A stretch of DNA of 64,000 bases, taken from assembly GCA_963971575.1 (NCBI GenBank), contig OZ020611.1:57073381-57137380 (forward strand). The letters are read 5' to 3'. The DNA comes from Liopterus haemorrhoidalis. Its lineage: Eukaryota > Arthropoda > Insecta > Coleoptera > Dytiscidae. Made by a program: the position numbers and the translations under genes. Below, piece by piece: positions 27,345 through 64,000 of the stretch (positions are counted from its first letter, which is position 1; every line of letters begins with the position of its first letter). The notes below the pieces were generated by a model. The model was not told the DNA's origin, made no database searches, and saw nothing but the letters and a program-made list of their open reading frames with translations.

Positions 27345-27350
27345 ATTCAT

Positions 27351-35686: not shown

Positions 35687-35784
35687 TTAGTGAACTTTCC
35701 TATTTTTTCACATGACAAGAGTGAGAAAATGGTATATAAGGCGGTAAAAGTGATGTTTATAGTTCATTCATACAATATACTTTG

Positions 35785-36712: not shown

Positions 36713-36765
36713 CAATAACATATCTTCCTATAAGACATTCTATTTTAGGTCTTTAATAAGTGAAT

Positions 36766-37494: not shown

Positions 37495-37497
37495 AAA

Positions 37498-39364: not shown

Positions 39365-39973
39365 ATGAACCAACAAGAACTTAATAATGCGGAAATTATT
39401 GAAATTAGTGATAGTGAAAGTGTAAGTGACAATGATAGTTGGAGTGAAAATGAAAATGTTGAAGAAAATGACTTGGCGAAATTTATGATGAGGAGTATGA
39501 GTCGGACCATCAGCACTGGTACAATAGCAGCATAATTCGGTTAGGTAATTCTAATGAAAACAGTGTATGTTTTATTTACACCTACAGAGAGGTAAATTTT
39601 GTTGGAATTTACCACCGATTTTGCGCGCTGTGCTTCCAGTCAGTTTTGGAAGAGGGGTACGTTTTCGCTACGACATACAGCAGGCATACGACGATGAACC
39701 CTGCGACATGTAAGAAAAAAAGCAATATATGAAGTTATAAATAATTATATATAAAAAATATATTATTTCTAGCGGATGAAGCAAGCCTAGCTAGCTTACG
39801 TTGCGATGTTTGCAGGGATTCCTTGGTGTTGGCAATCCCCACAGCCGTATGCCCCCGTTGCGTGATTACCGAGTGAGTATTAAATTATTGTTTTAACCTT
39901 TTTTGAGGGTTTTAAATTATTTTTTATATTCTATTTTTACAGAGATGATCAATACGTCACTCGGCAGGAGTAG
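39365..39973 (+). pseudogene. Spliced cysteine-rich zinc-binding protein, one frameshift
   Basis: Exon 1 starts ATG 39365 with a serine/aspartate/glutamate-rich head (IIEISDSESVS). A one-base shift near 39470 is needed to continue into an acidic stretch and FCALCFQSVLEEGYVF. Intron 1, 39710-39772 (gtaag...ttctag), joins in frame to DEASLASLRCDVCRDS...CPRC. Intron 2, 39873-39942 (gtgagt...ttacag), joins in frame to a short tail ending TAG 39971-39973; without it a TGA follows at once. Four CxxC-type pairs indicate a zinc ribbon/RING-like fold. The 57-codon first frame is too short for a long-ORF search. Confidence 0.6.
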
Positions 39974-40457
39974 CTTGCTGGTCTCCCCCTTCAATTCCCG
40001 CCCATCATCGCCGCCCCCTCCACTACATATATAATTTTGTATATTTATAATATTCTTTTTATTTTATTATTTAAAAAAAATATGATTAAAAAAATATAAT
40101 TTTTTAAATGTGTTTTTTATTTTTTATAATTTGTATATGCGTAATGCCCAGTAGAAGCAAACATCTCGATCGTTTTTTTGAAAGCTGAGACTAGGGATCC
40201 GTCTAGTCATTACCACTACCCCAACCCACTTTTAATATTTATTAATATATTCGAAGTAATAAAAACATATTTTTAATTTTTTATGATTTTTTATATTAGA
40301 AAAAATAAAAATATATACATATACACATTTTTTATATTATAAAAATAACATATTAAAAACATATTAAAATATACATATACACATTTTTATATATTATAAA
40401 ATAAAATATATCATATTACAAAATAAAATATATGAATATATTTACAAATTTTTATTT
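39974..40457. other. AT-rich spacer between convergent genes
   Basis: Very AT-rich with several aataaa-like signals on both strands, consistent with shared polyadenylation between the convergent zinc gene and polymerase gene. Confidence 0.6.
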
Positions 40458-43400
40458 TTACAATTGTTCCTTCTTATACCCCCAGGGTAAAGTATCAGTG
40501 TACGGGAAATTTATAATTCTTTTATCATCGCATGGGTTTAACGCTATTTTTCTTTGTTTGATTGTATAAACATCATGTTCTTTTGAAGTGATAGTGCACT
40601 GACGCTTGGTAAGTATTAATTGATTAAATAAACATGTGTAGTAATCATCAAAACTTATTGTTTTTAAAACACCTTCTGTTACACCCTTTGCTCTCTTTCC
40701 TACGTACTCATCTAACATCTTATAGGCGTACATTTTGGATCTCAACCCCGCAAACTCCACCATCACATTTCCAGCGTTTTCATCCTTCATCAACCCAATT
40801 TCTTTCCCATTAACTCTAGGCATATTGAAAATATTATTTTTTGCATAATCACATGTATCGAACCGATAAAGTTGTGCCTTCATCGATTGGTAAATATCAA
40901 TATGCTTAAATTCATACAATAAGCTATCTGTGTCTGTATATAAAAGTTTAGCGTTTTCACTAAAATTTTTTTTAATATAATTGTAATGAAAATCATAAAC
41001 CAAAATTTTCGATAAGTCTAATATTGCAAAACCCACATAAATAGGTTTATTCAATACAATTAATTTCTTAGACATTTCTATAAGGATAAAATCGTCATCC
41101 AATATTTCACAAGAATGAAAATTAACTTGTGAAATATAATTTTTAGCCCCATAACGCCCTTCCCACTTATTTACTAATTTGACATCTTTCCGCTTTCTCA
41201 CATTTTCCATCATTTTACCAAATACAGCATTATTCATTAACTTATAAAAATTTTTCTTAAAGCTGTTATCTGATTTTTTTCTTAATTCAGTATTCAAGTC
41301 TATATATTTCCGGAGCCAGGGTTTTTGTTTAAATTTTAAAATTCTATGAATGTGAGATAATTTCATGCCTAAATTCAAACACTGTTTTAAATTTTCATAA
41401 TGTATTATGTAATTTCTTTTATTATATAAATTTTGAATAAGTTTTGATTGTTTTGAGATCGGCGGTATGAAATGTTCAGGGCATAACGGTAAATCTCTAT
41501 GTAGGTGATGCAATGTCACAGGATAGTCCAGATCCACCTCAAAAATATATCCAATATGTGAGTCACTCGATAAGTTCATTATATCGATATTATTAAATTC
41601 TGATTCTGACACCCATTCGAATTGAGCGTAAGGCAAAGGCATTCTCATAGCGGCCCCATATAAATTATTAATATCAAAATACATTAGATATGAATCAGAT
41701 GCATTGGGGTTATATAATTCTCCCATATATTTATTATTAGCTTTACCGTATCTATTTACACAAACAGAAACCCCCCCACGAATACCTCGTTCCATCATCA
41801 TAACCTTATCGATATCGGTTAGAAGCTCCAATTCAATTTCTGTTAATTTTAAGGCTGCATCGAATGCTAAGCCGGGGGCTGTGAAATAATGTGCCGCATC
41901 TAGTTTGTAAGTGTCTAAACAATTTTCGCGAAAATTTTCAAAAACGTCTGCTAACAAGAATACATCAGTTTTCAAGTATAAATTTGCATATTCACCTAAT
42001 GTTTTTATATTAAATGTCCCCCAAACTTTTTGCGCATGTTCATAATCGTTTTGAGTGATATGGTCATTTTTTATTGAACTATAAAATGCTTCTATAGACG
42101 GTAATTGTTCATCTTTTAATTTTTCCCAAGAGTCCACATATTCATACGGATATACCCCCTTTCTCGTTAATAATTTAAATTCCTTTTCAGAAGTACAATG
42201 GCGTCTAGTTATGCATTTCTCAGAATCTTTCAAATAAGACGCTAATTTATCTAAACTACTAGCCATGAAACGGAAGGAATCGATAAATCTGAATTGAATT
42301 GCTGTATTTTGCACGCGTTTAGTAAATGAAATATACCGTTCTTTGTTGATTGGTAACAGTGAAACTGCCCCAGGTATTCTCGTTGCTAAATTTTTTATTA
42401 CAAAATGCGCGTCGTAACAAGTTAAGTTATGGAATACCACTGAAATAACGTGTGTATTTTTATAACGCAAATTGCAAGAAGCGTGAGCCCCCCCCCCCGA
42501 AAGCGCCCACTTAAATGACAGTGATCACGGACCATTCTAAAACCTTCTTCTTCTTCTTCTTTAAAGTTCTCACCACATATGTGACACACTGTAGTGTTCC
42601 TAAAATCTAATTCTTCATCCACGGTAAGTTGCATCGGTACAACATTTTTCATAATACCGTCCACTTTAATGGCGATTTTGTGTAGTTGATCAACAAACCA
42701 ATCGATGCAATCATCACCGAAATACATTTGAAAGTATGATAGTTCATCATCATATGAGCATTTGAAATAGTATGCTATACTAAACGCTTTATGTTTCTGA
42801 ACATATTGCGTGTTCACGTTTTGTTTTGCATTTAGTTTTTCAAGAATTGATTCTATATCCGCGTATATTATAAACGGGGCTTTCTCTTTATACTTATAAT
42901 TCTTAAATTTCAAAATATTTACACCTTCTTTAGGTAATTGTATTCGTGCCTTATTGTGAGTGAAACAAATCAGTGAATGCTTATTTAAGGTTTCTTCAGT
43001 TTTAAAGTGATTAAGACACCGGTCGCATAAATATGTAGCATTTTTAGACTTTGACATCTGTGAATTTAATAATCTGCTTAAATTTTTGATCCACATAAAA
43101 TGGTAATTTTCTGGTTCTCGTATACACTTAGCGATAATTTCGTTGTTTTGTTGATCATCGTAGTTTATCACGTTTTCTTCATTATACCCCTCGATTAATT
43201 TATGGACCATTAAAAGATGTATGGTTTTACTATATTTTTTGGTTGATAAAAGAACTGGAACAACTTCATGTTTTGCTTTTTTGCTCACCCCAGCTCGCTC
43301 TAACGTATACACATTGATGCATAATTTATTTTGTTCTTCAAATTTTGATATATCTTTCAGTTTTACCGGAAATTCTATCCCTTCAAATTTCAAGGTTTGC

Positions 43401-44242
43401 CAGAATTCAGTGTAAGACGATGGGCGGTCTGAATTCGAATGAGCTGGATAAAGCGCGGATAAAACTGCATATTTGAAACAATATTCATCATAATTTTTCA
43501 CATTTATAATAGCTTTTTTCAACTTTATATCTGTCGGCAACTCCACATATCCTGTTGATCTTATCGGCGAATAATTATTAATGTTTACTTTTAAATGAAG
43601 GATTTCTCTGAGAGAGAACCCAGAATCCTTCTGTTGAAAATTACCTAGGGCGCTTAATATAATGTTTGTAACATTTTCGTCATACCATAAATTAATATCC
43701 GTGCTTGCATCTATTACCTTATTAGCTGTATTAAAACTTTTGATGTCACAGGTTTCAGTCGAAGGTAATATGAATTCACAACTTAATATCACGTTGACTT
43801 TTAAAATAGATGATTTTAATGCCAGCTTGATTTTATTTACGAATAATAATTTAGCATTATCAAAAAATGTTCGAGGTTCTTTGAACCCTTTTTTATTTAT
43901 TATTATTCCGGTTCTTATTCTATTTTTAAATACAGACTTCACATCTTGCCATATTAAACCCCCATATCTTTTTCTCCCCCTTATCGATATACCGCAACCG
44001 ATTTTATCTCCATTATTTTTTATTATCTGTTTATATGTTATCAACAACGCTAAATTCGCTTCTAACTTAGATAAATTTTTTATATCTTCTTTAGCATTAA
44101 CGTACTGCGATATTAAATTAATAGATTTATTAATACGTTTAATCCAAGTGTTTACTTCATCCGAGGATTTAATAAGCGTTAGAACACTTTTAATTTTTTT
44201 AATTAATTCGTCGCTATAAGAAGCAACTGTAGCCTCAGTCAT
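40458..44242 (-). pseudogene. Protein-primed DNA polymerase B, frameshift in an 11-C run
   Basis: The N-terminal frame (44242 down to 42422, 606 codons) and the C-terminal frame (42470 down to 40458) belong to one polymerase of about 1,255 residues. Exonuclease: IIYADIESIL (458-467), a zinc motif CHICGE...[12 protein letters not shown], then, in the second frame, [13 protein letters not shown] (Exo II). Polymerase: [10 protein letters not shown] (266-272 of that frame), [11 protein letters not shown], catalytic YTDTDS (511-516). A C2H2-like finger (YLCDRCLNHFKTEET) precedes. This is the Polinton replicase that starts DNA synthesis on a protein primer at the TIRs. The frames meet at C11 (42488-42498), a likely slip or sequencing error. 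Confidence 0.96.
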
Positions 44243-44740
44243 AGTTTTTATGTCTTAGAATTGAAAATAGTAAAAAATTCTAAGTCCGAGCCTGTGAAGT
44301 TTACAATTCTTAGGCTTGCGTAACAAGCTTTGGTTAAGATTACCGGCGGTCGACCTCGTCTCAGGAGTCTGTTCTGAGAGCTCGCATTAGGCTAAGTTTG
44401 TAAAAAGGCGCTGTTTCACGGCATACCTTGTACACATGGCTTATAATTCATTTATCTTGTATGCAAACGGACGTATTCAGATATTTTTTAAAAGCATATT
44501 TCACTTTAGAATTCCAAATATAATAACTTAATTAATGTTTTTTTTACATTGGTTATTTATTAAAATTATTTTTATAACTAATTTGTGTTTTTTACATTAC
44601 ATAACTTAAAATAATGTTTTTTTACGTTATAAAACTTAAAAACAAAACTAATTACGGATTCCAAAAGAAATCTACTCGATCAATAAGACTTTTTTAATCG
44701 GACGTAATTTTTGTTCTTCTTCTTCTTCTCTCTTGGTTCA
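44243..44740. other. Spacer upstream of polymerase gene
   Basis: No gene recognised. Likely holds the polymerase promoter on the minus strand. Confidence 0.55.
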
Positions 44741-45091
44741 TCATATATATTCACAATTTAAACAGACTGTTGGATCGGTATATGTAGCAAAATAACCATC
44801 ACAACGTTCACAGCGATTGAATATTCTATCTATATCATAAGTAAATAGTAGACATCTGTGGTATTCGGTACAGCAAGAACTGAAATCTATGCGACTTTTA
44901 CTACCACATTCAATTAGATCTTCTTTGCAGATTTTACACACATACACGTTTTCACCGTTTATATTTTGATACCAACAATATCTTACAAACCAACAGAACT
45001 TTGTTGATTTACTGCACTCGCGAGAGAGATGTTGAATACTTCTAGCTAATGTCGGACGGCGATGCAGAATATTATTCAATAGTACAGGCAT
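44741..45091 (-). CDS. Right-end cysteine-rich zinc-binding protein
   Basis: 116 residues, 15 cysteines. Basic N-terminus (ILHRRPTLARSIQ), then a CxxC (YVCKICKEDL), a cysteine-histidine cluster (SSCCTEYHRC) and two further CxxC pairs (NRCERCDGYF and VCLNCEYI). It is a compact two- or three-zinc domain, similar in layout but not in sequence to the spliced gene at 39365. Comparable cysteine-rich proteins exist in insect DNA viruses, and a link to baculovirus Ac52-type proteins is only a suspicion. It is the gene nearest the right TIR and may act early in regulation. Confidence 0.7.
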   Translation of the reverse strand: MPVLLNNILHRRPTLARSIQHLSRECSKSTKFCWFVRYCWYQNINGENVYVCKICKEDLIECGSKSRIDFSSCCTEYHRCLLFTYDIDRIFNRCERCDGYFATYTDPTVCLNCEYI

Positions 45092-45249
45092 AACTGCTCT
45101 GTCAATAAGAAAGATTTACATTCGACTGCATAGCAAAAGTACACCAACTCGCTTTTTTTATCGCGCGTCTCTTAGCGACATGTTGTGTAGGTTGGGGGGG
45201 TTAGTTAAGCACAGCGGTGCCCCCTCTGGATCGAGGGCGACCCCCCACT

Positions 45250-45251
<2 letters not shown>

Positions 45252-45282
<31 letters not shown>
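45252..45282. repeat. (GT)n microsatellite near right TIR
   Basis: Simple repeat 54 bases inside the right TIR, mirroring the (AC)n at the left end. Confidence 0.9.
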
Positions 45283-45283
<1 letters not shown>

Positions 45284-45336
45284 TTGCAACGTACACTTGT
45301 GTGAATCCCCTGATTTTTATGCGTAGGTGTACGGTA

Positions 45337-45475
45337 TGTGTAACGTTTGTATAAACTAATTAATGCGTGGTCAGCTAGCGTCAATATGACGATAAAAGTC
45401 TATGCGATAACGCGGATGAAAGAAGTTCAGGCTCTTGTAGGCATCTTGAGCGGGAATCCCCCCAGTTTATCTACT
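45337..45475 (-). repeat. Polinton right terminal inverted repeat
   Basis: 139 bp, exact inverse of the left TIR; followed by the attcat target duplication at 45476-45481. Confidence 0.97.
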
Positions 45476-47802
45476 ATTCATATTCACTTCTCTGCTAATA
45501 TCTTCGGTATCTTCTAAATCATCAACTTCAATATTTACTTGATCTTCTCTTTCGTCATTTTCATCATCTTCAACTTTATTATATACCAAAATTTGATTAT
45601 CTTCTAAATCAATTTTAGACGTTGATTTTTCTTCTTCAAAAATTATTAAACTTTCACCTGTATTATGTTGATTCTCAGTTAATAATTCTGATCTGTACTC
45701 ATTTTCTAAAAATTTCGTATCGGTACTTGAGTATATAATATTTTTAATCGGATCATATATACGAATCTGTTGGAACAATAACCAAGGAAGATTCCAGATT
45801 TACTTTTTTGTTCTAATTTTCTCCTCTCTCCATTTGGTATCCAGGTATATGCCTTGCATCCAAATATTTTAAAATAAGACAAAGTAGGTTTTCTACGTGA
45901 CCATATTTCTTCTGGTGTCTTATCATTTAGGCTTCTCTTAATTAATCTATTTTTAACATATACTGCAGTGTTTGCAGCTTCGGCCCAAAATTTTAATGGC
46001 AATTTTGAGTCACTAAGCATTGTTCTTACTGTTTCTATTACTGTCCGATTAGCTCGTTCCGCCACCCCATTTTGCATTGGTGTGTACGGCGTAGTAGTTT
46101 CATGAACTATGCCGTTGTTTTCTAAATATTTCTTAAGATTTTTATTTATAAACTCACCTCCATTGTCTGATCTCAAGCGTTTCAGTTTCTTACCAGTTTG
46201 CCTTTCATTTTCTTTTATAAATTTAATTAAATTTTCAGTAGTCTCATCTTTTCTTTTCAAAAAAGATACAAATATCTTTCGACTAAAATCATCTACTATT
46301 GTGAGCAAATAACAACTTCCACCAATCGATTTTTTATGCATTGGTCCACATAGATCAACATGTACGAGTTCTAATATATCTGAACTCTGTGTTTCATTTA
46401 CAGATTTGAAACTTCTTCTACTTTGTTTACCTCTGACACATTCTTCACAAATGTCATGTTCTGTCATTTTTATGTCAAAATCACGTATTGACATATGCCG
46501 ATTCATTTTTTTCATTAAGTGTACGTTAGCATGAGCCAGTCTTCTATGCCATAATTTTGTCTTTTCATCTGTGATTTTGTAAATATTTTCTTTTCTTACC
46601 GTTTTTGCATTTATTTTATATAATCCATTTTTCTTTGGTGCGGTAAATACCAAATTTCCATTTCCCGCGTAAAAAACTTCACACATATTATTTTTGAAAA
46701 AAACACAGACACCTTCTTTAGTTAATTTTCCAACTGATAATAAATTATCTGTCAATCCAGGTGAAAATAATACTTCTCCTATTCTAATATTAGTGTTGTT
46801 TTTATTTTCTAATATTACTTGACCAAACCCTTTGGAACATTTTATGCTGCCATCTGCTAATTCTATTTGTCTTTCAAATTCATTTTCATAATTTTGTAAT
46901 ATTTCTTTTCTTCCAGTCATATGACTAGTTGCTGCCGAATCTATTATCCAGTCATATTCGTTGTGTTTTACAAAATTCTTTTCAACTTTTAATGCAAATT
47001 CTGTTTTTTCTTGACTTGTGCTGGCCTTGAATTTTCTATTATCTATTTCTTTATTTCTATCATATTTGTTTGTGTAACTCTGAATATTAGTCCTACAATC
47101 TTTTGCTTTATGTCCAAATCTATTACATCTAAAACATTTAATGTTACAATTTCTATTAAATTTCGCCTTTTGATACCTTCCTTTGTTCTCTCGCATTCTT
47201 GTTTTGTTCGCAATTTCATCCATTTTATTTTCTTCTCCTAATATTTCCTCCTCTTTTAGTAGCGCATATTTAACTTTTGATAATGTAATTTGAGAAATAT
47301 CGCTCATATTAAAAATTGTCGCTATTTTTGAATATCGTTTTGGCAGTCCTTGTACAGCTATTGATGCGGCTTCTACATCATCAATATTTTCTCCAAGAGC
47401 CCGAAGATGCTCTACCAATGTCTGAATCTTCTCTATGTATTTTTGTCCATTATCATCATTTTGCCATTTAATTGTGTGTAATGCTCTTTTAATATCTAGT
47501 TTCTCTTCGATTGCTCGAATTTTATGGATTTCCTCCAGTTTATTCCACACTTCTTTTGCAGTTTTTGTGTTCAGTATATATTGAGTCTGTACTGAACTCA
47601 AAGACTGTACCAAAAAATTCATGGCTTGCCTGTCCTTCTTCAGCCATTCTACCTGACTTTGTTCATCTGTTGGTGGTTCAGCTTCAATAATATTCCATAA
47701 CCCTTTTGCTTCTAAATATAGTTTGGTTTTAAAACTCCATACTTGATAATTGTTCTTTTCTAGTTTTTCTATTAATGATAATTCATTTATTTTTCCTGAC
47801 AT
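45476..47802 (-). pseudogene. Copia gag-protease-integrase half, one frameshift
   Basis: From ATG 47802 the frame gives gag (IEKLEKNNYQVWSFKTKLYLE), a CCHC knuckle (CFRCNRFGHKAKDC), the protease active site WIIDSAATSHMTG, the GAG-pre-integrase zinc region (LWHRRLAHANVHLM...CEECVRGKQ) and the integrase core (LVHVDLCGPM, LRSDNGGEF, VAERANRTVIET). Near 45770 the frame shifts by one base and continues as an acidic integrase tail to the Polinton insertion at 45481. The copia pol continues at 27344. The protease has Asp-Ser-Ala rather than Asp-Ser/Thr-Gly, which is common in copia. The element would be active-looking apart from the shift and the insertion. Confidence 0.94.
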
Positions 47803-47866: not shown

Positions 47867-48036
47867 TGTTGGTATACTCCATATATTTAAATTCTATAAA
47901 CACAATACTAATTATAAATACAATATTTCTATATTTTAATGACAGCTCAAAATCTACAAATCTCTATTTTTCTAATACTCATACTTCCATGACAACCTAT
48001 ATTTTCTACAAGACAAAATTTCAAAACATATCAACA
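47867..48036 (-). repeat. Copia 5' LTR
   Basis: Intact 170-bp LTR, tgttgg...caaca on the plus strand, followed by the target duplication ttagc at 48037-48041. Confidence 0.97.
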
Positions 48037-48402
48037 TTAGCTGTGTCACCTCAGAAGTGATGTATGTATGTTCTATGTATTTTATTTAATTGGGCTTGAA
48101 AAATATTCAGATTATAAGTTTAATTAACTAAATTGACGTCAAAACGGACCTCCAAACTATTCTTTGATCATAATGTTTTTTGATTAAATTTTATAAACCA
48201 CACGTAGATTTAAGTTTTGTATATCTTTAGCTTAATAAACATAGTTATAAGTTAAACTTATAACTGTTGCTTAATTTCAAACAACCCCCACATTCTCATG
48301 TCCGGCTCGAACCCATAATTTCCAGGTTCCATGAGGGAGCTGTAAGCCAACCCAGCTTAATTGGGGCCTGAGAGGTAAGTGCCCACCGCTCGGGGTCTTA
48401 CA
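48037..48402 (+). repeat. Gypsy 5' LTR, right half
   Basis: Continues the LTR begun at 23787 after the copia insertion and ends cttaca, with a tRNA-Leu-type primer site two bases later. Confidence 0.65.
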
Positions 48403-48404
48403 TT

Positions 48405-48421
48405 TGGTGTCAGGTGTGGGG
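48405..48421 (+). promoter_or_regulatory. Gypsy primer-binding site (tRNA-Leu)
   Basis: tggtgtcaggtgtgggg is complementary to a tRNA 3' end CCA and the GTCAGG-type acceptor stem of tRNA-Leu. It lies two bases behind the LTR end. Confidence 0.7.
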
Positions 48422-49812
48422 TAGTTTCAAGAAAATCCCTTGAAACGCAAAAATCGCCCGACAGAAGTAAAATTTGTGCGGGAGTATTTGTACTCTAAAT
48501 TATAACCCAAAAAAAAAAAATTAAACCTTCTAAATTACGTTTAGAGGCGAGATGAACGCAAGTACTTCAGCAACAGATAGCATGTTACCATCAATAGGAG
48601 CACATATCTCGGTCGAGGCAATCCCGACCTACGATGGGACCGGGAATGTGAAAAACTTCATTTCTATTCTAGAAGATACAGCCCTTCTTGCGGGATGGGC
48701 AGACCCTCAAAAGGTACTACTCGCGAAGTTGCGATTAAGGGGTACCGCAAAAAGTATTATTCAGTCAGAAGAAGCGCCCGGTGGATGGCCTCAAATGAAG
48801 GACCGGTTGTTAGCCCGGTTTGGGTCAAAAAAACTACCGGGGCAACGTCTAGCCGACATAACGAGGTGTCGGCAGTATAAAGACGAATCGGTGCGAGCAT
48901 ATGCTGCTCGTTTGCGAGTATTATGCACTGAGAACGCAGCCGAAATTAAGACTAAAAATGTTGAAGTTTTAGCAGCTTTGAGGGAAAGAGAGAAAGCAGA
49001 TACCCTCAGCCAGTTTTTACTGGGGTTGCAAAACTCAATACAGCGGAGGGTCATGTCCGCCAACCCGCTCACATTTGAGGCGGCTATTGAATTAGCCGAG
49101 AGGGAAGAGTTGATTGAAAGGTTAACTAGTAAAACCGAGAAATTAAATGTTATGACTGTACGTGATGCGGATTATAAGAAGAGACCATCAAAACATCGTA
49201 ATCCATCTGGAAATACGTCTGAATCCGGGCCTGGTCGTGATCAACACTATGAGAGTTACCGCGAGAATAGCGAGGGATACCGGCAAGCGCCGCGTAGGTT
49301 TCCACCAAGCAGTGTTGCCAGATGATGAAAAAGAAAAAATCGTACCAACACTTCAAAATGATCGTATTTTCAAGAAAAAAATCGTACAAACAATCGTATT
49401 TCTTAAAAAATAATCGTACAAAATATTTGCTGTGTAATTAATTTAAAAATTATTAGGTATATATTTTTCTATTGCACAATCATAGTAGCAGAAAATGATA
49501 AAAAAATTATAAAAATCTATATCTATATATCTATCTATATATATATAGATATATATCTATCTTATATCTCTATACATCTATCTTTATTAAATCTATATAT
49601 ATATATATATGAATTAGTCTCTTGTTTCATTTTGTAAAAATCACATAAATACCTATCACATGCATAAATGAATATCACATGCATAGTTGAAAAAATCACA
49701 AGATATTTTAGTAAAATTAGAGTACTCTCAGGGAAATACATATCTTTATATTAATACATTAATACAATAATATATTAATACAGACAAGGCCGATGTCAGT
49801 TTGTAGTACAGT

Positions 49813-50100
49813 CAGTGGCGCAACCAGGAATTTTTCTTGGGGGTGGGGGGGGCGGTAGACAAAAAAAAGTGAAGCTCCTAGCTTCGATGACAAAAAAACA
49901 AAAAGGTCCTCACTTGTAAAATACAAGTGATGAGCAAAAAAAAAGGTCCTCACTTGTAAAATACAAGTGATGAGAAAAAAAAGGTCCTCATCTCTACTTT
50001 TAAATCCATATCTATATATTTACCTAAGATCCATAATGCTATTTAAAAAAATTTATATTTCCATCCTTCTTGGAGTGGGCCCCCCCTGGGTGCGCCACTG
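49813..50100. mobile_element. Complete 288-bp hAT-type MITE nested in copy B
   Basis: Starts cagtggcgcaaccagg, ends cctgggtgcgccactg, with the 8-bp duplication agtacagt at 49805-49812 and 50101-50108. It contains two copies of ggtcctcacttgtaaaatacaagtgatgag in tandem. A truncated copy sits at the same site in copy A, so it inserted before the host element spread. Confidence 0.93.
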
Positions 50101-50115
50101 AGTACAGTACTCTTA

Positions 50116-50717
50116 TACCCTTTTCACACTAGAACTTTAAGATCGGATGTTAAAGTGAATGTGTCTTTAAACACTAATGTGAAACCGTATGGCCTCGTCT
50201 AAATACAAGCGATGTTTAAGACAGAGATCTGCGTCTTAAACATCGTCCGCACTGCCAACATAATTTCTATTATAAAAATATACTCTTTGAATTTGTGCTG
50301 TCAACATTTTGTATTATCATAAACAAGAATACTGTATTACATCGACGTTATAAGAAGTTTATACTTATTGTTATAATAAAATTATTTATTTTAATAATAT
50401 GTTTAATAAAATATAGAGTTACAATAATTGAGATAAAATGTATCGACTTACATGTTAATACAGGTGTAATATACTCTTTATTGTACTGTCTTCATTGTAG
50501 AATGAAATGAAATATCCATATTTGTTTATAATAATTCAAAATGTGCGTCTGCGCAGACAGTTCAAAACTGGTAATTTCCTGACGGTAACTTAAGGACAAA
50601 ATTACTGTAGCTGATGACAGCACCGGAGATTTAAACATCAAGTGTGAAAGCAAACCGATGTTAAACATCGGTGAACTTTAAGTTCACTCGTCTTAAAGTT
50701 CTAGTGTGAAAAGGGTA
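50116..50717. mobile_element. Inner MITE in copy B
   Basis: Same taccctttt...aagggta inverted ends as 2487-2983, at the same site in the host element. It is about 100 bases longer than in copy A. Confidence 0.75.
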
Positions 50718-51227
50718 CAACTAATGAGGAGTGAGCTTTATATTTTTGAATATTCGAATATGCCCGAACATACCCGATCTTAGCGAGATAAACCATTCTA
50801 TTTAAGAGTGCGTTGATTTGAAATCGGAGGGCTAAAATATTCAATATATCGCATTATATAATATTAATATTTAACTTACTAAACATGTATATAAATAAAT
50901 ATGTTTCATCAATAAAAACATCAAAAAAATCGTACATCTGATACCAAAAAGTCGTACATCGTACACATGCAAAAATAATCGTACAAATACGATTTAAATC
51001 GTACATCTGGCAACACTGCCACCAAGACGGACGGAGCACCGCCCGAATAATTATGCTGGCTACAATGAAGCTGGAGAACGACTATGTTTTAAATGTGGAA
51101 AGCCCGGTCATTTCCAGAAGGACTGTAGAGACAAAAACAAACCCCGGACATATCAGGGAAAGGATACTGATTTAAACGAGGGGGCAGCCGGTGCGAAGCC
51201 CCGAACCCCGGCTGCAGATTCAGCTCA

Positions 51228-52298
51228 AAAATTTTAAATTGTAAACTAGGGGTCCGGATCCGACATAATGACGCGGAATATGTAGATTCTGGATGTAATA
51301 CTGTGCGTATTAAAATGGCCCCCCGTGTTATTCGCGCGGTTTTGGATTCCGGAGCGGCAGTTTCCCTAGTTCAGGAACAGGATTTAACGGGGCATTTTAG
51401 TAGTAGCGCTATAGAAATTAAAGATGTACAGGGAAACACGATACCTGTAGTAGGGCAAGTAAATTTACAGTTAGAATTACCGCGAATCAAAATTTTGATG
51501 CACGATTTTTATGTTGTGAAAAATGTGTTATTTGAACCTGAATTACTATTGGGGTTGGACTTTATGACCATATTTAATGTTTTAATAGACTGGAGTAAAC
51601 GAAGGGCCAGAATAGCAGGAAACTGGTTGCCGATGGAACCAGAGCATTTAACGGGGTATTTGGTCGAAAGTGGGAAAATTAATTTGGCTGAAGTTGAGCC
51701 GTGTAAAAGCCGTGTACACCCGTTAGAAGGAAAATTGGGGCCAACTAATAAATTGAAAATATTGGAGGGGGATATTGAAAACTCTAGTGATAATGCGGTG
51801 ATTGTCCATTGCGTGTCTTTAGATTTAAAAATGGGACAAGGGATAGCAAAAACCCTGAAGGAAAAATATGAAATGTACAATTTGAATTCCGAAGGAAAAC
51901 AGGTAGGCGATATTATTGTTTTTAACGCTAGTTCAGGGCGGAAGATAGTTAATTTGATTACTAAGTCACGTTATTATCATAAGGCGACATACGGTGCTAT
52001 TAGGAGAGCACTGATAAAATTAAAGTTGTTTTGTCTAGAAAATGGACATACTGAACTCGCGATGCCGAACATCGCTTGTGGACTGGATGGTAAAAAGTGG
52101 AAAATTGTTAAAAATATTGTAAAACAAGTGTTTAAGGGGACAAATATAATTGTAACGGTTTATAAATTAACAGGTCTGCTGGCCACTAGTAAGAAAAATG
52201 TTGAACGCTCGGAGTTTGCAAACTGTGGTAGGAGCAAGGAAGACGTGGGCAAATCTCGTGAAATTTTGAAGAAAGGAAATGATGATATTATGAAATGA
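51228..52298 (+). CDS. Gypsy pol N-terminus: protease plus macrodomain
   Basis: The frame opens at about 51228 behind gag; the first ATG-like codons are at 51303-51315. Residues (from 51303) 10-100 are a retropepsin: AVLDSGAAVSLV active site and LLLGLDFM near its end. Residues 151-290 form a macrodomain: LKILEGDIENSSDNAVIVHCVS, DLKMGQGIAKTLKEKY (glycine-rich ADP-ribose loop), VNLITKSRYYHKATY, and LAMPNIACGLDGKKWKIVKNIV (second loop). This order is that of TARG1/OARD1-type ADP-ribose hydrolases, including the lysine in the N-L-I-T-K box and the aspartate in C-G-L-D. A frameshift near 52300 separates it from RT. Confidence 0.9.
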   Translation, partial: KILNCKLGVRIRHNDAEYVDSGCNTVRIKMAPRVIRAVLDSGAAVSLVQEQDLTGHFSSSAIEIKDVQGNTIPVVGQVNLQLELPRIKILMHDFYVVKNVLFEPELLLGLDFMTIFNVLIDWSKRRARIAGNWLPMEPEHLTGYLVESGKINLAEVEPCKSRVHPLEGKLGPTNKLKILEGDIENSSDNAVIVHCVSLDLKMGQGIAKTLKEKYEMYNLNSEGKQVGDIIVFNASSGRKIVNLITKSRYYHKATYGAIRRALIKLKLFCLENGHTELAMPNIACGLDGKKWKIVKNIVKQVFKGTNIIVTVYKLTGLLATSKKNVERSEFANCGRSKEDVGKSREILKKGNDDIMK

Positions 52299-52462
52299 TA
52301 AATTACGACCACATGCAACAGGTCTTGGGGAGACTGATCACCTCTCTGTTCACCTCTTGCACGATGTTGTTATACCAGCCAGATCAGAGGTGGTATGCCC
52401 TGGAAAAGTGAAGGGAGTGCACGCCCTAAAATTTTTCTGAAATTCTCCTTGAACCTACAGAA
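52299..52462 (+). pseudogene. Gypsy pre-RT spacer, frameshifted
   Basis: In a third frame the codons read LHDVVIPARSEVVCPGKVKG, the conserved beta segment that precedes RT in many gypsy pols. Stops near 52437 and 52451 and two register changes show decay here. Confidence 0.7.
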
Positions 52463-54067
52463 ATGTTAACTGCAGGAACTTTAGCTGCGCGGGTGCTATG
52501 TAAAAGCGCCAAAATTGTTCCGGTGAGATTGATGAATGTCTCTGAGACCGAGGTAACAGTGACAAAAGGCTCCCGGGTCGCGCAGGCAGTCGCTGCTGAA
52601 GAAGTACGTGAGAGTACTGAACGTAAAGTCCCGAATACTGTTCAAAACCAGTCCAAAGTTAAGAAATCTGTGAAAAGAATCAGCACAGAACAGCGAGAAA
52701 TTATTGAAAATATGGAATTGAGTCATTTAGCCCCACTGTGTAAACAAAAAATGGAAAATTTGTTATATGAATACATTGATATATTTAAGGCCCCTAATCA
52801 AAAATTGTCGTGTGCTAAAAATGTAGAGCATAAAATTATAACGCAAAATGTAAATCCCATAGTATCTAGGCCTTATCGTATGCCGTATAAACCTAAACAT
52901 TTGTTGGATAAACAAATAGATGAAATGCTTACAGATCAAATTATAACGCACTCCGATTCCCCCTGGAGCGCCCCTGTAGTTCTTGTTGAAAAGAAAGCAA
53001 ACACTTTTGATGACCCGCAACTACGTATTTGTATTGATTACAGGAAGTTGTTTACCACCATTGACTTAGTAAGCTGTTATTATCAAATTTCATTAGATGC
53101 CGACTCGCAACAATATAGCGCGTTTAGTACGCCTACTGGACATTACGAATTTTTAAGAATGCCGCAAGGATTTAAAAATGCACCTGCCACCTGGATGCGA
53201 CTAATGATGACAGTACTTGCAGGATTACAAGGACAAATTTGTTTATGTTACCTAGACGACATAATAATTTTCAGTTCTGACGATATTGACGAACATTTAC
53301 AAATGTTAAGAGCGGTATTAGAAAAATTACGCGAATACAATCTCAAAATTAAGCCATCAAAATGTGACTTTTTGAAAACAGAAGCAAAATTTTTAGGACA
53401 TATAATTTCAAAAGACGGTTGTAAAACAGACTCGGCTAAATTAGAAGTTGTAAAAAATTTCCCGGCACCTAAAAATGTAAAATAAATTAGGTCATTTTTG
53501 GGATTATGTAATTTTTATCGTCGTTTTGTAAAAGATTTCGCAAAGATTGTACAGCCGTTGACAGAATTGACTAAAAAGGACATACCCTTTTCTTGGACTA
53601 AAAGACAAGTTGACGCTTTTGATCAGTTAAAAACCGCTCTATGCACACCACCTGTATTAAAATTTCCAGATTTTTCAAGACAATTTCGGGTTACAACGGA
53701 CGCCTCTAAGCAAGCCGTAGGAGCCATTTTATCGCAGATTTATGATGGGCTAGAACACCCTGTGTGCTATATTAGTCGTAATTTAAATAAAGCAGAAAGA
53801 AATTATTCAGTTACAGAGCAAGAGTGTTTAGCCGTAGTTTGGGCTGTTAAACAATTTAGGATAAATTTGGCAGGGACGAAATTCACTTTGATAACAGACC
53901 ATCGACCTCTAAAGTATTTACTGACTTTGAAGGACCCATCGTCAAGGTTGTGTAGGTGGGCATTACAATTACAAGAATACGACTTCACGGTTGAACATCG
54001 GGCCGGAAAATTAAATACTAATGCGGATTGTTTATCCAGAATACCAGAAAATAGTGTGATGGCTTAA
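52463..54067 (+). pseudogene. Gypsy reverse transcriptase-RNase H
   Basis: The frame resumes with LTAGTLAARV and VPVRLMNVSE, then RT: SPWSAPVVLVEKK, RICIDYRKL, TTIDLVSCYYQI, FSTPTGHYEFLRMPQG and catalytic CYLDDIIIFSS. Codons directly after RICIDYRKL jump to FTTIDL, so roughly 25 residues with the usual Y-P-L-P box are deleted in frame. A TAA replaces one codon at 53483-53485 between RT and connection. RNase H: FRVTTDASKQAVGAIL, RNYSVTEQECLAVVW, LITDHRPLKYLL, ADCLSRIPE. No integrase follows. Replication-incompetent. Confidence 0.92.
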
Positions 54068-54640
54068 CACAATATTTAATTTTTGTGTGGTTCTATGTAT
54101 CTGTAAAAGGTTCTCAAATGGGTTTATTATATAAAAAGTTAATTCACTTGTGAGGTGTTTTATTTCTGTTAATATTACAAGGTTTTTACTTATATTAATT
54201 TATATTTATTTCAGTTAATGTTAATTAAAATTACGAGATGGAATGAACTTTTGAATACGGAAGATAGAAATGGAAATTGACTTGACTCTACTAAGGTTGA
54301 AATCGAATTGTTTTTATGATGCTAAGTTTTGTATAAATATGAAGTATGTTTTGCTTTGTTAGCACGAAAAAGTTCTCAATTATATTTGGAGTTAAATATT
54401 AATTAGTAGCGCGTGTTTATTGTTCAAAACATTGGATATCTAGGAATGAAATATGTATCCTGAGATGAACGAGTTCATCGACTTATAGCGCGTGTTCATT
54501 ACACCTCCCCTTTCGTAAGACAAATGATAAAGATGTAAAGTGTTTAAAATTGAAATTATTGATATTTTCTTTTTCATTTGTCCATTTACTTAAATTATTT
54601 CACAACTATATATATTATACTAGATATATTTATTTTCTTA
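54068..54640. other. Non-coding, junction of the two gypsy elements
   Basis: No LTR copy, integrase or other gene seen; the 75-residue hydrophobic frame at 54550-54777 is AT-driven and not supported. Confidence 0.5.
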
Positions 54641-54649
54641 AAATTATTA

Positions 54650-55125
54650 TTAATGTCTCTCAATTTTTAGATCTATCGGTGGTAAATATTCTATTCTTAT
54701 TTTGTTTGAAAATGTTCTTTTTGCTGATAAAAGAGTTGATATTCTACATCAACTACAAGCAAAATTTAGAGAAATAATTCCTGGATTATTTAATTTAACA
54801 TCGATAGTACCTATCTTTTGAGGACTTGCAACTTATACTTAATGTTTCTGGATTTGCTAACAAAAATAGCCGTAGGTCTGCTGTGAGTTAAATGTAAAGG
54901 CTGTGTTTGTTTGCAAACATAATACTTAAAATTAACATTTTTACAATATTTTATATCGTTATGAATGACGAGATAATGTTCTCTATTATCGTCGATAGCA
55001 AAGAATTCACTAGATGGTTGAATAAACAAGTACTTGTTCGATTTTTGTTTTACTGGCATTGGTCTTAATCGATGTGCATTGAAAATGAATGGTTGAACAA
55101 GTGGAACTTGAATTAAATAAATTTA
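54650..55125 (-). pseudogene. Errantivirus-like env fragment
   Basis: The minus-strand frame 55125 to 54811 has the IQVPLVQPFIFN start, RLRPMPVKQ, a strand with FIQPSSEFFAID, a cysteine pair (IKYCKNVNF, YVCKQT) and HSRPT. Further codons after a stop (54811) read LPPIDLK. This order of beta strands and cysteines is that of the distal ectodomain of F-type envelope proteins in insect errantivirus-like gypsy elements. The 5' part is missing at the Helitron-like end. It lies downstream of the gypsy integrase, the correct place for env. The fragment has no coding capacity for a full protein. Confidence 0.62.
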
Positions 55126-55136
55126 ATATTTATTAA

Positions 55137-55166
55137 CTAGGGGCCTCAGCCCGGCTACGCCGGGCT
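55137..55166 (-). mobile_element. Helitron-like 3' end
   Basis: On the minus strand an 8-bp stem, agcccggc/gccgggct (55166-55159 and 55155-55148), with three-base loop is followed about 7 bases later by ctag (55140-55137) and then T. Hairpin plus CTAG before T is the Helitron 3' terminus. The body would extend rightward; its 5' end is not located. Confidence 0.7.
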
Positions 55167-56750
55167 TCTCCCCCTACGTTGATAAAACTCGTCGCTTCGC
55201 GACTCGTTTTAATATAATAAGGCATTTTGCCGCAATGTCGATTATAACACTCGGGAAGTTCTAATCTATACATACAATGTTCAAAGGATTATCCAAATCA
55301 GTTCATTAATTTACGTTTGTACCATTTAAACGTAACAATAATATTTTATTTCACTATAAAGAATACATGGATTCTGAATAAAATAGAGAAAAATTAATAA
55401 AATAGTTAAATATTATTGCATATGATTCACTATTAATTATGTCACTTGGAAATTTAGAAAAACTTTTGAGTAACACTGATAGATGTGAAATTTGCGGATT
55501 TTCGTTGCAATAATATATTCATTGTAGTAATATTTTACGTTATTAAATTTAATATTTTGTTTAACTATTTAAAAAGGTATTTATAATTTTCAGTTTTTTT
55601 GAAAATAATTTGGTTTACATGTAAATATATTATAGTCGTTTTTTAATTTATTTAATCACTAAAATTTCACCTATACTTGTTATAATTCAGTAATGCGAAG
55701 GAATTGCCTCCTAAATTTGAATGTCGATAGTTGTCTCGTTGTTCGAGAGAGGCGCTGATGAATACTTTTATCATAATTTTTAATTTTTTTTGAAATACGT
55801 CTTAAAATGAGCATTTTTACTGCAAAAAGAAAACAGCGGAAGACCTTCAAGATGATAAAAAAACACTTTCATCCTATAGTAATCCATTATATAAATAAAT
55901 AAGATATTAAATTGACATCTGGGTATTTTATACTTCAAGATTTAACACAATTAAAATTATGCGATTACTAAATATCGAATATTATTCTGTCTTATCTATC
56001 CTCCTAATACACTCCACTTTATACTTTCGTTAATATAGTTAGTAAAATAGTTAATAACATACAGTTTCCAGAATTAAAATAACAAAACTGCTTTACACAT
56101 CTATCTTCACCCTGAAAACTTATTTGAACGTATTCTACAGATAGGTTTAACATTTAAAACGTTCGAACGACCCTTAAAATATATTTTGATAACTCAAAAC
56201 TGATTCTTACTTTCTTAATTCTTACTTTCTTTTCCGTTTAATAGCATTTTTAACTGAAGACAATTTTATGATCAGCAAAAGTTTTCAAAATTTATGAAAA
56301 TGTGTTAAAACCTTAAAAAACTGCATTATCTTTATCAACTCTTATGTATTTTTTACACATTTCATCAATTTTATAAATAAAATACCTTCAACTGTAGTTT
56401 TTCAATTCAGTTTTGGTCTGAAATCGCCTCCTAAATAGTAGAAATATGAATAAACATATTTTATCGTCTGGTACAACCTATCCGTGCCCATTGCTCGGCA
56501 CGGGTCGGTGACGATCAACGACACGGTTTCGAGGAAAAAATGCATGATTTTCATCAATATAAATTAGTCAGTACCCCCTGTCGAAATAAAATTAAGCCTA
56601 AGCACTAAAAAAATATCACGCGGATAAGACGGCGGTTCATTTGCCTCTCTCCGCGTTACCGGAAAAATGAAGATACACCAGAAGTTGAATAGAACATACA
56701 TACCAACACTTGTACAATATAATAGTAGATTATTTATTATGTTAGATTTA
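55167..56750. other. Non-coding; probable Helitron body and gypsy spacer
   Basis: No protein. A palindrome gtcgcttcgcgac lies near 55190 and a stem ccgtgcc/ggcacgg at 56482-56503. The right end up to 56750 adjoins the gypsy integrase stop. LTR or env start of the gypsy element may be in the last 100 bases but cannot be defined. Confidence 0.4.
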
Positions 56751-57720
56751 TTATGTTATGCATTTTTTTAATCGATTAGCGTGAACTTTTACGTGTCGAT
56801 TCTTTATTTTGATTGTATAATTTACTGGAGAGTTCTTTTCTATGATCTCATATGGACCGTTATAATGAGGAGTTAACTTTTTACTTTTATTTAAAGGAGT
56901 TTGTTCATTTAGTAGGAATATTTTATCTCCGATTTGGAATTCGGTTACATTTACCTTTTTATCGTATATTATTTTGTTATTATTTTTAGAATTTATAATG
57001 TTATCTCTTGCGATTTTATTGGACATTTGAAGTTTTAATTTTAAATCAGATAGATAATCATCATAGGTATATTGAAAAGTAGGCTCCTGTATTATCGTCG
57101 TAGGAAGTTCTGCATTTTTACCCAAAATTAATTCATAGGGTGAGAATTTAGTCGTACTGTGTGGAGTTGTGTTATAACTAAACATTGCGAATGGTATCCA
57201 ATTACACCAATCTGTTTGCGAATTAGAAATGAAATGTTTTAAATAATCTGCGAGAGTTTGATGCGATCGTTCTAAACTACTATTTGACTGAGGGTGATAG
57301 GCTGTTGTTTGAATTTTCCGTATTTTAAATAATTTTGCGATATCTTCAAATAATTTAGACGTAAAGTTTCTGCCTTGATCAGTTAGGATCGATTTGGGTA
57401 TTCCGAAATTACAAATGAATTTTGTAGTTAGGACGTTAGCGATTGTTTCAGTTTCTTGATTTGGAATAGGGTATCCTTGATAAAACTTTGTCAAATCGTC
57501 TTGCAAGGTTAAAATATATTTATTACCGTTTTCTGATACAGGGAATGGACCAACTATGTCTAGAAAGATTTTGTCAAATGCGTTCTCTGAAGTTGAAGTG
57601 ATTTCCATAGGGAGTTTTGTTTTCGTACGAACTAATTTATTTTTTTGACATTCTGGGCATTGTTTAATAAATTTCTTTACAGCTGATTTTAAATGTTGCC
57701 ATTTATATATACTTCTGTTT
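56751..57720 (-). pseudogene. Gypsy integrase
   Basis: The zinc-binding HHCC domain begins in the frame of the upstream ORF (YHITPTGGYHGIS) and, after a shift near 57703-57720, continues with WQHLKSAVKKFIKQCPECQKN. Core: DKIFLDIVGPF, ILTDQGRNF and NSSLERSHQTL give the D-D-E triad. The C-terminal domain (IGDKIFLLNEQTP, LTPHYNGPYEIIEK) is the GPY/F module of gypsy integrases. It ends with a basic HVKVHANRLKK stretch. The frame is uninterrupted from the conserved core to the stop. Confidence 0.93.
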
Positions 57721-58656
57721 TATCTTTTTATATGTACGTGATATTCCGTGATAACCTCCAGTTGGAGTAATGTGATATTCTTTTAATATAATAGGAATTT
57801 CTTCTGGACTTGGTATTATTATTTTAGAGTTGCAAATAGTTATTTTTATATTTTGATTTTTAAATATAAATCTTAACATTACACGAATTTTCTGATATTT
57901 TAAATTATGGAAACTTTTATCGAGTGTTGATATGGAAAATGAGTTTATATTATTTGAAATTAGATATTCTTTTAGATGTACGAGTGAGTCGTACACATCT
58001 TTATAAGATAACTTATGATAATGACTTTCTTTGTTTACTAACAATAGTATTTTATTATTCGTGTTATTTATTTTATGGATTTCGTAGACATGATTGTTGT
58101 TTGTAGGATTTAAGGTATTTAGATTTATGTTATACTTTTCTAATATTTCATTAGTAATATTTAGGTCTCTTGACGAACATATTACGTAATTATTCTTAAT
58201 GTTCATTATTGATTCGTCGGTTTCGATTACATTTGGATTTAGAATGACATGAGATTCGATATGATTTAGAAATTCTTCGTAAGATATAGAATTAGAATGA
58301 TTCGGCGATTCGTAGGAATTAGAAGATTTAGTAGTTGATTGCGACTTTGATTCAGTGGATTTAGAAGTTGATTTCGACTTTGAAAGATTTTGCAATTTTA
58401 AGATATTTGATTGAGACTGAGACATATGATTCTGCGATTGAGGCATAGGATTCAGTGATTCATTTTGCGATTGAGACATAGGATTCAGCGGTTCATTTTG
58501 CAAATGAGACATAAGATTCAGTGAATCATTTTGCGATTGAGACATGGGATTCAGAGATTCGTTTTGCGAATGAGACATAAGATTCAGTGATTCATTTTGC
58601 GATTGAGACATAGAACTTGAATTTGCTTCGCTATTATTTTGATTAGCGTTAGACAT
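57703..58656 (-). CDS. Gypsy linker with 11-residue repeats and macro-like domain
   Basis: 317 codons between RNase H and integrase in the same pol. Residues 16-80 are about 5.5 copies of an 11-residue serine/asparagine/glutamine unit (MSQSQNESLNP), encoded by a 33-bp tandem repeat at about 58417-58611; 80-125 is serine/lysine-rich. Residues 148-275 resemble a degenerate macrodomain: YVICSSRDLNITNEI, LLLVNKESHYHKLSYKDVY, SISTLDKSFHNLKYQKIRVM and FKNQNIKITIC follow the TARG1-type order, but the glycine-rich ADP-ribose loops are lost. The end is the start of the integrase zinc region. Confidence 0.75.
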   Translation of the reverse strand: MSNANQNNSEANSSSMSQSQNESLNLMSHSQNESLNPMSQSQNDSLNLMSHLQNEPLNPMSQSQNESLNPMPQSQNHMSQSQSNILKLQNLSKSKSTSKSTESKSQSTTKSSNSYESPNHSNSISYEEFLNHIESHVILNPNVIETDESIMNIKNNYVICSSRDLNITNEILEKYNINLNTLNPTNNNHVYEIHKINNTNNKILLLVNKESHYHKLSYKDVYDSLVHLKEYLISNNINSFSISTLDKSFHNLKYQKIRVMLRFIFKNQNIKITICNSKIIIPSPEEIPIILKEYHITPTGGYHGISRTYKKIKQKYI

Positions 58657-58669
58657 AGAATTGTTAGCA

Positions 58670-60350
58670 CAACATCTAGAACAAAAATGTAGAATTGGGA
58701 TTCGACTTAGAGCATCAGCGTTTGTGTTCAGTTTACCTGATTTATGTATGATTTCGTATTGGTATTCCTCTAATTTAAGTCTCCATCTAATAAGTCTACT
58801 TCCGGGATCTTTTACACTTAAGATGTAAGTTAGGGGGTCGATGATCTGTTACAATTTTGAACTTACGCCCGTAAAGATAAGGTCTGAAATGCTTTGTTGC
58901 GTAAACTATTGCTAATAGTTCTTTTTCGATTGTTGAATACGATATTTCGGCTTTATTGAGAGTGCGGCTTGCATATGCGATTGGTTTATCTTGCCCGATA
59001 ACACCTTGTGAGAGGATTGCGCCAATTGAGTGATTACTTGTGTCCGTAGTTAAAATAAATGTTTCCTTAAAGTTTGGATATTGCAATAGAGGTTCTGTTG
59101 TTAAAATATCTCTAAGAGTTTCAAATGCATTTTGTTGTAAACTAGTCCAAATAAAACTGATTTTCTGTTTTAGTAAATTATTGAATGGATTTGCGATTTT
59201 ACTAAAGTTTTGTATAAAACGTCGGTAGTATCCTACGAGGCCAAGGAAGGATCTAACTTCTTTTTGATTTCGGGGAATGGGAAAATTCTGAACTGCTTCA
59301 GTTTTCTTTGGGTCTGGTTTTACACCATTTTCAGTAATAATATGACCTAAATAAGCGACTTCTTTGTGTAAAAATTCGCATTTATCTGGTTGAATTAATA
59401 AGTTATGTTTTCTAAGCTGCGTAAAGATCTCGCGTAATTTATTATAATGATTTTCGAGGGAGTTTGCATAAACGACAATATCGTCTAAGTAAATAAATGC
59501 TTTTAAATCTTGGATTCCTGCAAGGACTGTGTTCATAAGGCGTTGAAACGTAGCTGGAGCTGATTTTAGACCGAATGGAAGTCTTAGATATTCGTAGTGA
59601 CCTAAGGGAGTACTAAAAGCTGTTTTTGGGGAATCTTGAGGATCCATTTTAATTTGATTAAAACCTGAGAATAAATCTAATGTTGTGAAATATTTGCTGT
59701 TGCCTAATTGGTCTAAAATATCTATGATATTAGGTAACGGGTATGAATCTCCGATACTTATGTCATTTAATTTTCTGTAGTCGATTACTAGTCTCCATTT
59801 TTGCTTTCCTGATGCGTCGATTTTTTTTGGCACGACCCATAAAGGTGCGTTCCACGGTGAATTGGAAGGTTTAATTATTTTTTTGTTTAACATATCTTTT
59901 ACTTGATTTTCGATTTCGTGTTTATGGATTTCGGGTAATCTATATTGTTTTACATTAATAGGAATATCTGAAGTAGTACGAATTTGATGCGTTATTGTAT
60001 CGGTTCCAGGAAATGTGTCACCTGGGAGATAGAAAAGGTCGTTGAACTCATGACAAAGAGATAATATAGATTCTTTTTCCTCCGCGTTTAAATGTTTAAT
60101 TCTTAATTTGGATTCTAATAAATTGATTCTTTCGGATTGATTGTTCTCTGTATTATTGGATTCGATTTTGTAGATACTACTTGATTTTGGAATGTATTCT
60201 ATCGTTTGAGGTACGATTTTTATGAGTTTGGTTTGTTCCGTCGTATTTAAAATAATCGTGTAGCTCTGGAGTTAGAAATTGATACAAAACTTGAACTTAG
60301 ATATATACCTTCATCTAATTCTATGCGATTTATGATACCTTCGGTTACGT
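58670..60350 (-). pseudogene. Gypsy pre-RT, reverse transcriptase and RNase H
   Basis: Pre-RT segment: GIINRIELDEGIYLSSSF, then a shift near 60265 and LNTTEQTKLIKIVP. The frame continues through DTFPGTDTITHQIRT, RLPEIHKHEIE and RT: SPWNAPLWVVPKK, RLVIDYRKLND, SYPLPNIIDILDQLG, FSTPLGHYEYLRLPFGLKSAPATFQRLMN, catalytic FIYLDDIVVYA. RNase H: TFILTTDTSNHSIGAILSQ, SYSTIEKELLAIVYA, KIVTDHRP. Then one base is lost or gained in a C-run near 58838 and the frame continues with RWRLKLEEYQYEI and ADALSRIP to join the 317-codon ORF. Confidence 0.93.
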
Positions 60351-60363
60351 TGGGTGTCGATCT

Positions 60364-60564
60364 GTTACAGAAGTCAGTGCGGCGGCTAATAAAATATTAA
60401 CAAAAAATTTCAAAATTAGCGCCCCATTTGATAAAAAAGATGAATTGTATAGTCCTACGTTTTGGCCAAAAGGAGTCGCATATACGCGTTACAACTTCAA
60501 TATAGAAAAAGAAAATATTAAACAAAGTAGAGATTTTTTAGAATCAAGAACAGAAACTGCCTAA
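60364..60564 (+). pseudogene. LINE ORF1 C-terminal fragment
   Basis: 66 codons to TAA at 60562-60564. The residues FDKKDELYSPTFWPKGVAYTRY match the closing domain found at the end of ORF1 in several insect LINEs. The N-terminal part is lost by 5' truncation. ORF2 starts five bases later. Confidence 0.7.
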
Positions 60565-60569
60565 AAGTT

Positions 60570-63279: not shown

Positions 63280-63381
63280 ATTTCAAAAATTAATGTAAAT
63301 TGATATAGCATGTATATTCTCTTTTTTAATGACTTAACTTGTAAATATTGAAGTTAAATAAAGGATTATTATTATTATTAT

Positions 63382-64000
63382 AGGAATAGAGACAAATATT
63401 TCAGAACGTGCTGGAACTTCGATTTCATTGACGTGAGATAGAATATACTGGATTTTACTTAGAACTAAACTATTTGTTTTATAACATATCGTGGCTTTTG
63501 ATTCATTGAGAAATTCTAGTCCTAATATACCATCTTGATTTATTTTAAAATCATTATTAACTACATGGAACTTGTGATTTCGAGTGTCGCTTGAATTTGG
63601 AATTGTGAGGAATGTGTATCCGATAGTTGTGGTTGGAATTTGGCATGATATACCTCTTAGATTTATTATTTCGTCGTTATGTATTTTAGTATTTTCATTT
63701 AAACATTTTAATTTTATTAGATTTATATCCGCGCCCGTATCTATTAGAAATATGTTATTTTTACTGATACATTGTTGAATATCGATTTTTACATTATTAG
63801 TACTTAAAGCGTGAATTGTTGTTACTTGATTTTGATTATTATTAAAAATGTTATTTAATGATTTATTATTTAATTGCGGTTTGAGCGAATGTTTTAAATC
63901 TGATTCCTGGTTCCGCTCGTGCCTGGAATCGGGTTTGAGTTTAAATGTTGATTTTGGTTGTATTTTCTGCTGATATTGTTGTTGTGGTGCCTCCCAGAAG
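63382..64000 (-). pseudogene. Gypsy protease and gag-pol linker, partial
   Basis: The minus-strand frame is open to the right edge. Retropepsin: NIFLIDTGADINLI active site (coded at about 63725-63760), GILGLEFL and then VPARSEIFVSIP, where the LINE cuts. Upstream is a polar glutamine/asparagine linker that would join gag. The gene continues beyond the window. Confidence 0.85.

Follow-up and report, generated by a model that had tools for sequence, protein, structure and literature searches.

In a 64,000-nucleotide stretch of the genome of the beetle Liopterus haemorrhoidalis (GenBank assembly GCA_963971575.1, contig OZ020611.1, positions 57,073,381 to 57,137,380 of the forward strand; hereafter the window, in whose own numbering all positions are given), one broken Ty3/gypsy retrotransposon copy, on the + strand (element 1), carries a complete macrodomain of the TARG1/OARD1 type between the protease and the reverse transcriptase of its pol region. 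We consider it fairly probable that a Ty3/gypsy pol gained this domain and that, in a relative of element 1, it acts as an ADP-ribosyl hydrolase. Macrodomain capture by Ty3/gypsy elements is supported by the comparisons set out below. These include a second Ty3/gypsy copy in the same window, on the - strand (element 2), with a degenerate macrodomain that was absent from a preliminary description of this DNA.

The macrodomain of element 1 and its surroundings

The preliminary description had placed a macrodomain inside a Ty3/gypsy pol open reading frame (ORF), behind the protease, and this placement is backed by sequence, profile, and model. The coordinates, strand, and frame it gave also held: the ORF at 51171-52298 (+) is open, and the macrodomain (51750..52172, +) corresponds to residues 150-290 of the protein encoded by 51303-52298, sharing one open frame with the protease, with no break between them, and lying upstream of the reverse transcriptase. 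Likewise, the motifs DLKMGQGIA, NLITK, and IACGLDGKKW are present in the order found in TARG1.

Assignment to the TARG1 type, also proposed earlier, is supported by phmmer, hhalign, and Foldseek. The domain matched human TARG1 in phmmer with an E value of 7.8e-27 (residues 5-140 of 141), well outside what chance would give, and hhalign returned 99.8% against an OARD1 profile. A profile match and a structure prediction had been suggested as checks, and both were obtained: the domain piece alone scored 24.8 bits against Pfam Macro (cut-off 22), falling to 21.8 bits, just below that cut-off, with the whole protease-macrodomain protein as the query, while the predicted model had a macrodomain fold with TARG1 as its best Foldseek match. 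The NCBIfam DarG family also matched the domain (E 7.5e-14), although at 51.7 bits versus a cut-off of 250. Loss of the ADP-ribose pocket residues in all related copies had been named in advance as a reason to abandon the assignment; the element 1 copy keeps both pocket loops as well as K72 and D113, the equivalents of TARG1 K84 and D125, which we take to be catalytic. A protein database search with an alignment of the element 1 domain, a piece of human TARG1, and the element 2 domain produced 945 matches among 1626 candidates, and in the best 120 of these 945 the two columns are K and D without exception (120/120). Element 1 is 33-44% identical to these 120 listed OARD1-type proteins. Based on its best matches, the domain most likely originated in an animal TARG1 gene.

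One earlier argument did not stand. The domain had been considered specially preserved because it was free of stops and frameshifts in an otherwise decayed element, but only 3 to 4 breaks occur in 589 downstream codons, and hence the absence of a stop carries no weight (probability of no break 0.38-0.49 for the domain and 0.11-0.19 for protease plus macrodomain; not significant).

The order of features in element 1 is that of Ty3/gypsy: gag with a CCHC knuckle, protease, reverse transcriptase, and RNase H. The 5' part of gag (48534..49322, +) is an ORF with a Pfam Retrotrans_gag match (1.9e-6, 28.4 bits, cut-off 24.1), and a CCHC zinc knuckle was recognized by eye in the frame 1 translation at 51085..51126 (+), CFKCGKPGHFQKDC. 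The aspartic protease (51306..51581, +) has a DSGA motif; its best Pfam matches, to gag-asp_proteas (0.0029) and RVP (0.004), fall short of the respective cut-offs. Frame translations place what is presumably the start of the linker between protease and reverse transcriptase at 52321..52437 (+), in a frame different from that of the macrodomain. The reverse transcriptase follows at 52874..53407 (+; Pfam RVT_1 3.1e-35), with a stretch missing as judged by eye and an in-frame stop downstream at 53483-53485, and then RNase H at 53594..53980 (+; Pfam RT_RNaseH 4.3e-40, RT_RNaseH_2 2.5e-36); both are in a different frame from the protease-macrodomain ORF. The integrase of element 2, used as a query against 54068-56750, found no counterpart there (best E 0.21, opposite strand), and an ORF behind RNase H (54469-54774) had no Pfam match. 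No long direct repeat pair that would represent long terminal repeats (LTRs) flanks the element within 47900-56800. Given the lack of an integrase and of paired LTRs in these intervals, we read element 1 as a truncated copy, and the former not as evidence against Ty3/gypsy ancestry.

Its gag is split by an insert at 49310..51018 (strand unassigned), with inverted ends starting CAGTG and an 8-bp target duplication (CCACCAAG, present at 49302-49309 and again at 51019-51026); by these two marks we take it to be hAT-like. A second copy of this hAT-like element lies at 2173-3418 in the opposite orientation, with pieces 84-96% identical and, as for the first, an 8-bp target duplication.

Element 2 and the remainder of the window

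Element 2 shows the Ty3/gypsy order of reverse transcriptase, RNase H, and integrase according to Pfam. Reverse transcriptase and RNase H are encoded at 58796..60271 (-; RVT_1 4.7e-39, RT_RNaseH_2 1.5e-35), and the integrase at 56751..57804 (-), comprising an H2C2 zinc domain (Pfam, below cut-off), an rve core, and an SH3-like domain at the C terminus; its frame changes near 57710. The degenerate TARG1-type macrodomain (57826..58245, -) lies downstream of RNase H and immediately ahead of the integrase, and a 33-bp tandem repeat that encodes a Ser/Gln/Asn-rich stretch (58429-58613, -) separates it from RNase H. Inspection by eye alone of the upstream frames (60200-61200) revealed no gag or protease; on the opposite strand, a non-LTR-type ORF begins at 60824. 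The 33-bp coding repeats were the only direct repeats seen at E 1e-3 within 55001-64000, and without paired LTRs element 2 is also read as truncated.

The macrodomain assignment here comes from a sequence search of PDB, from hhalign, and from a model. TARG1 was the sole PDB match below E 0.5 (E 4.6e-5, residues 51-131 of 134). Against an OARD1-only profile, hhalign gave 96% over 80 columns, compared with at most 1.7% for 100 shuffles and 0.2% for the integrase of the same element as a control; both this profile and the PDB search were made without element 1. The model, which was built with element 1 as the only other alignment row, fits TARG1 best. When it was compared with a viral structure library, at least 50 matches were obtained, with no retroelement among the names listed (several matches carried no name). 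An NCBIfam scan of the domain gave no match, and a tblastn search of the window that used the element 1 domain as query and an E limit of 10 missed it. With the glycine loop and the D125 equivalent gone, we class the element 2 domain as a degenerate relative rather than as a TARG1 enzyme.

To the element 1 domain and to the best OARD1 protein alike, the element 2 domain scores 122 (2000 shuffles scored no higher than 61). Blastp pairs the two domains at 40 bits, with 14 OARD1 proteins ranking above element 1. A single capture shared by both elements is unsupported, as element 2 is equally close to an OARD1 protein and to element 1. The position of the macrodomain in pol also differs, being between protease and reverse transcriptase in element 1, and between RNase H and integrase in element 2. 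These scores and positions are compatible with two captures, although element 2 is too diverged to decide their number. Since the second domain sits in a different place, such elements may have taken up a macrodomain more than once. A broader proposal, which we advance tentatively and rate below even chances, is that Ty3/gypsy elements captured TARG1-type macrodomains repeatedly, with an active eraser beside the protease in one case and, in the other, an extension at the N terminus of the integrase that has lost catalysis. If so, this would hint that host ADP-ribosylation exerts a standing pressure on retrotransposons and that an integrase extension is of macrodomain origin. The element 2 domain further suggests that the spacers between RNase H and integrase in some gypsy elements may be unrecognized macrodomains; long spacers at this place occur in elements of the 412/mdg1 type.

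Transposable elements are abundant in the window, in keeping with an arthropod genome. A Polinton/Maverick-like element spans about 18.1 kb (27349-45477); its inverted repeats measure roughly 144 bp, and no exact target duplication was evident. It carries an integrase (rve), an A32-type ATPase, and a double-jelly-roll capsid protein (E 4.8e-119), together with a phospholipase A2-like domain and DNA polymerase frames recognized by eye only. It appears to have inserted into an element judged by eye to be of Copia type (25560-48036, minus strand), with 134-bp end repeats that are 99% identical. A satellite array occupies 4491-8062 (139-bp unit, 25.7 copies, 98% matches).

Predicted function and alternative explanations

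In a working relative of element 1, the macrodomain would be made within Gag-Pol and cut free by the neighboring protease. It could then act as an ADP-ribosyl hydrolase that clears mono-ADP-ribose from acidic residues or from the ends of nucleic acids; putative substrates would be the particle of the element itself, its RNA or cDNA, or host factors that silence the element. A passage in PMC7139919 describes TARG1 as removing ADP-ribose from acidic residues and as acting in vitro on single-stranded DNA and RNA too. Given these activities, particle proteins, the RNA genome, and cDNA are all possible substrates. Editing of ADP-ribosylation on the particle or on host defense factors is a putative role that the kept pocket residues would allow. 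A precedent for ADP-ribosylation acting against retroelements is Van Meter et al. 2014 (cited in PMC8003356), where, going by the title, SIRT6 reportedly represses LINE1 retrotransposons by ribosylating KAP1. In element 2, catalysis has probably been lost, and the domain may now form a folded extension at the N terminus of the integrase.

Several observations weigh against an enzyme captured by a replicating retrotransposon. The element 1 copy is dead, with its gag split by the insert and its pol broken, and a stop and changes of frame intervene between the macrodomain and the reverse transcriptase linker, for which reason an in-frame fusion with the reverse transcriptase is not seen. Element 2 is likewise a dead fragment, and its domain lacks the MGxGIA glycine loop and CGLD (with the D125 equivalent), keeping the K84 equivalent. 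Moreover, it has no Pfam Macro match, the best Pfam family being Imm41 below cut-off (17.7 versus 26.9 bits), and the models are of low confidence (pLDDT 64.5 and 63.9). No further copy of either fusion was confirmed in viral contigs searched with the element 1 domain, the element 1 reverse transcriptase, the element 2 domain, and the alignment, nor in genome contigs searched with the protease-macrodomain protein and with reverse transcriptase; the collections consisted of viral, bacterial, and archaeal contigs. In the protein database, the protease-macrodomain query yielded 4223 candidates, none at E <= 1e-3, a search that was insensitive, as it missed the OARD1 proteins themselves.

Other searches bear on how widely the fusion is distributed. 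The element 1 domain alone gave 12 protein candidates, none at E <= 1e-3. No transposon occurred among the visible names of the best 120 of the 945 alignment matches (some had no name), where a full-length pol could not show because match lengths were limited to about 78-247 residues. A literature search found no macrodomain in a Ty3/gypsy element by title or abstract opening among the papers listed, with most subscription papers outside its reach.

Among the alternatives, the one that fares best, although we consider it unlikely, is that the macrodomain is structural in both elements, as a folded spacer or as a module binding ADP-ribose, chromatin, or RNA, and not an enzyme. Element 2 would fit this explanation, having kept the fold while losing the glycine loop and the Asp, and in both elements the domain adjoins a polyprotein enzyme; nonetheless, element 1 retains its pocket residues, including the two presumed catalytic ones. 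Slightly less likely still is a one-off event, in which a single copy of the host's TARG1 transcript or gene ended up behind the protease of this dead element and was never part of a replicating retrotransposon. Such an event would account for the single known copy of the protease-macrodomain fusion and for the downstream junction being out of frame. However, macrodomain and protease share an unbroken frame, inspection by eye shows no poly-A tract behind the domain, and the presence of a macrodomain in a second gypsy copy lowers the likelihood of a chance landing. Element 1 is also at most 44% identical to the listed OARD1-type proteins (best 120 of 945), although the proper yardstick would be the host TARG1. 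Finally, it is highly improbable that the Asn/Ile/Lys-rich element 2 spacer resembles a macrodomain merely through composition and a common fold, as the missing Pfam Macro and NCBIfam matches, the weak Imm41 match, the tblastn miss, and the use of element 1 in the model might suggest, given that composition-preserving shuffles remained far below it in both tests, that the OARD1-only profile and PDB search are independent of element 1, and that the integrase control scored so low.

Comparison with known systems

The closest known counterpart of the element 1 domain is TARG1/OARD1 (C6orf130), the animal terminal ADP-ribose protein glycohydrolase, with which it shares full-length sequence similarity, fold, both pocket loops, and the equivalents of K84 and D125; it differs in being part of a pol ORF, where it is fused to the end of a retrotransposon protease. 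The DarG antitoxin macrodomain of bacteria is also of the TARG1 type, as the NCBIfam match reflects, whereas the element 1 domain falls far below the cut-off of that family, named DNA ADP-ribosyl glycohydrolase antitoxin, and is located in pol. Polyproteins of alphaviruses, coronaviruses, and other RNA viruses likewise include a macrodomain of the same fold, but the element 1 sequence groups with TARG1, and the listed alphavirus chains are 10-16% identical to it in structure alignments. Viral macrodomains are taken as a sign of host defense by ADP-ribosylation. If Ty3/gypsy pol encodes an eraser of the TARG1 type, this contest would reach retrotransposons as well, and a concrete protein would be at hand for assay.

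Among retroelements, epsilon-like endogenous retroviruses of teleosts are reported to bear macrodomain ORFs, according to a passage of PMC4977317 that cites Basta et al. 2009. These are likewise macrodomain-bearing retroelements, in which the domain is described as forming additional ORFs of vertebrate retroviruses, whereas here it lies within pol, at two positions, in elements of the Ty3/gypsy type. Capture of cellular enzyme domains by retroelements is already known, and what we regard as new here is a TARG1-type domain in Ty3/gypsy pol at two positions. A parallel is dUTPase, a captured enzyme domain in the pol of retroviruses and other retroelements whose position varies among groups, as does that of the macrodomain between elements 1 and 2, although enzyme and fold are different.
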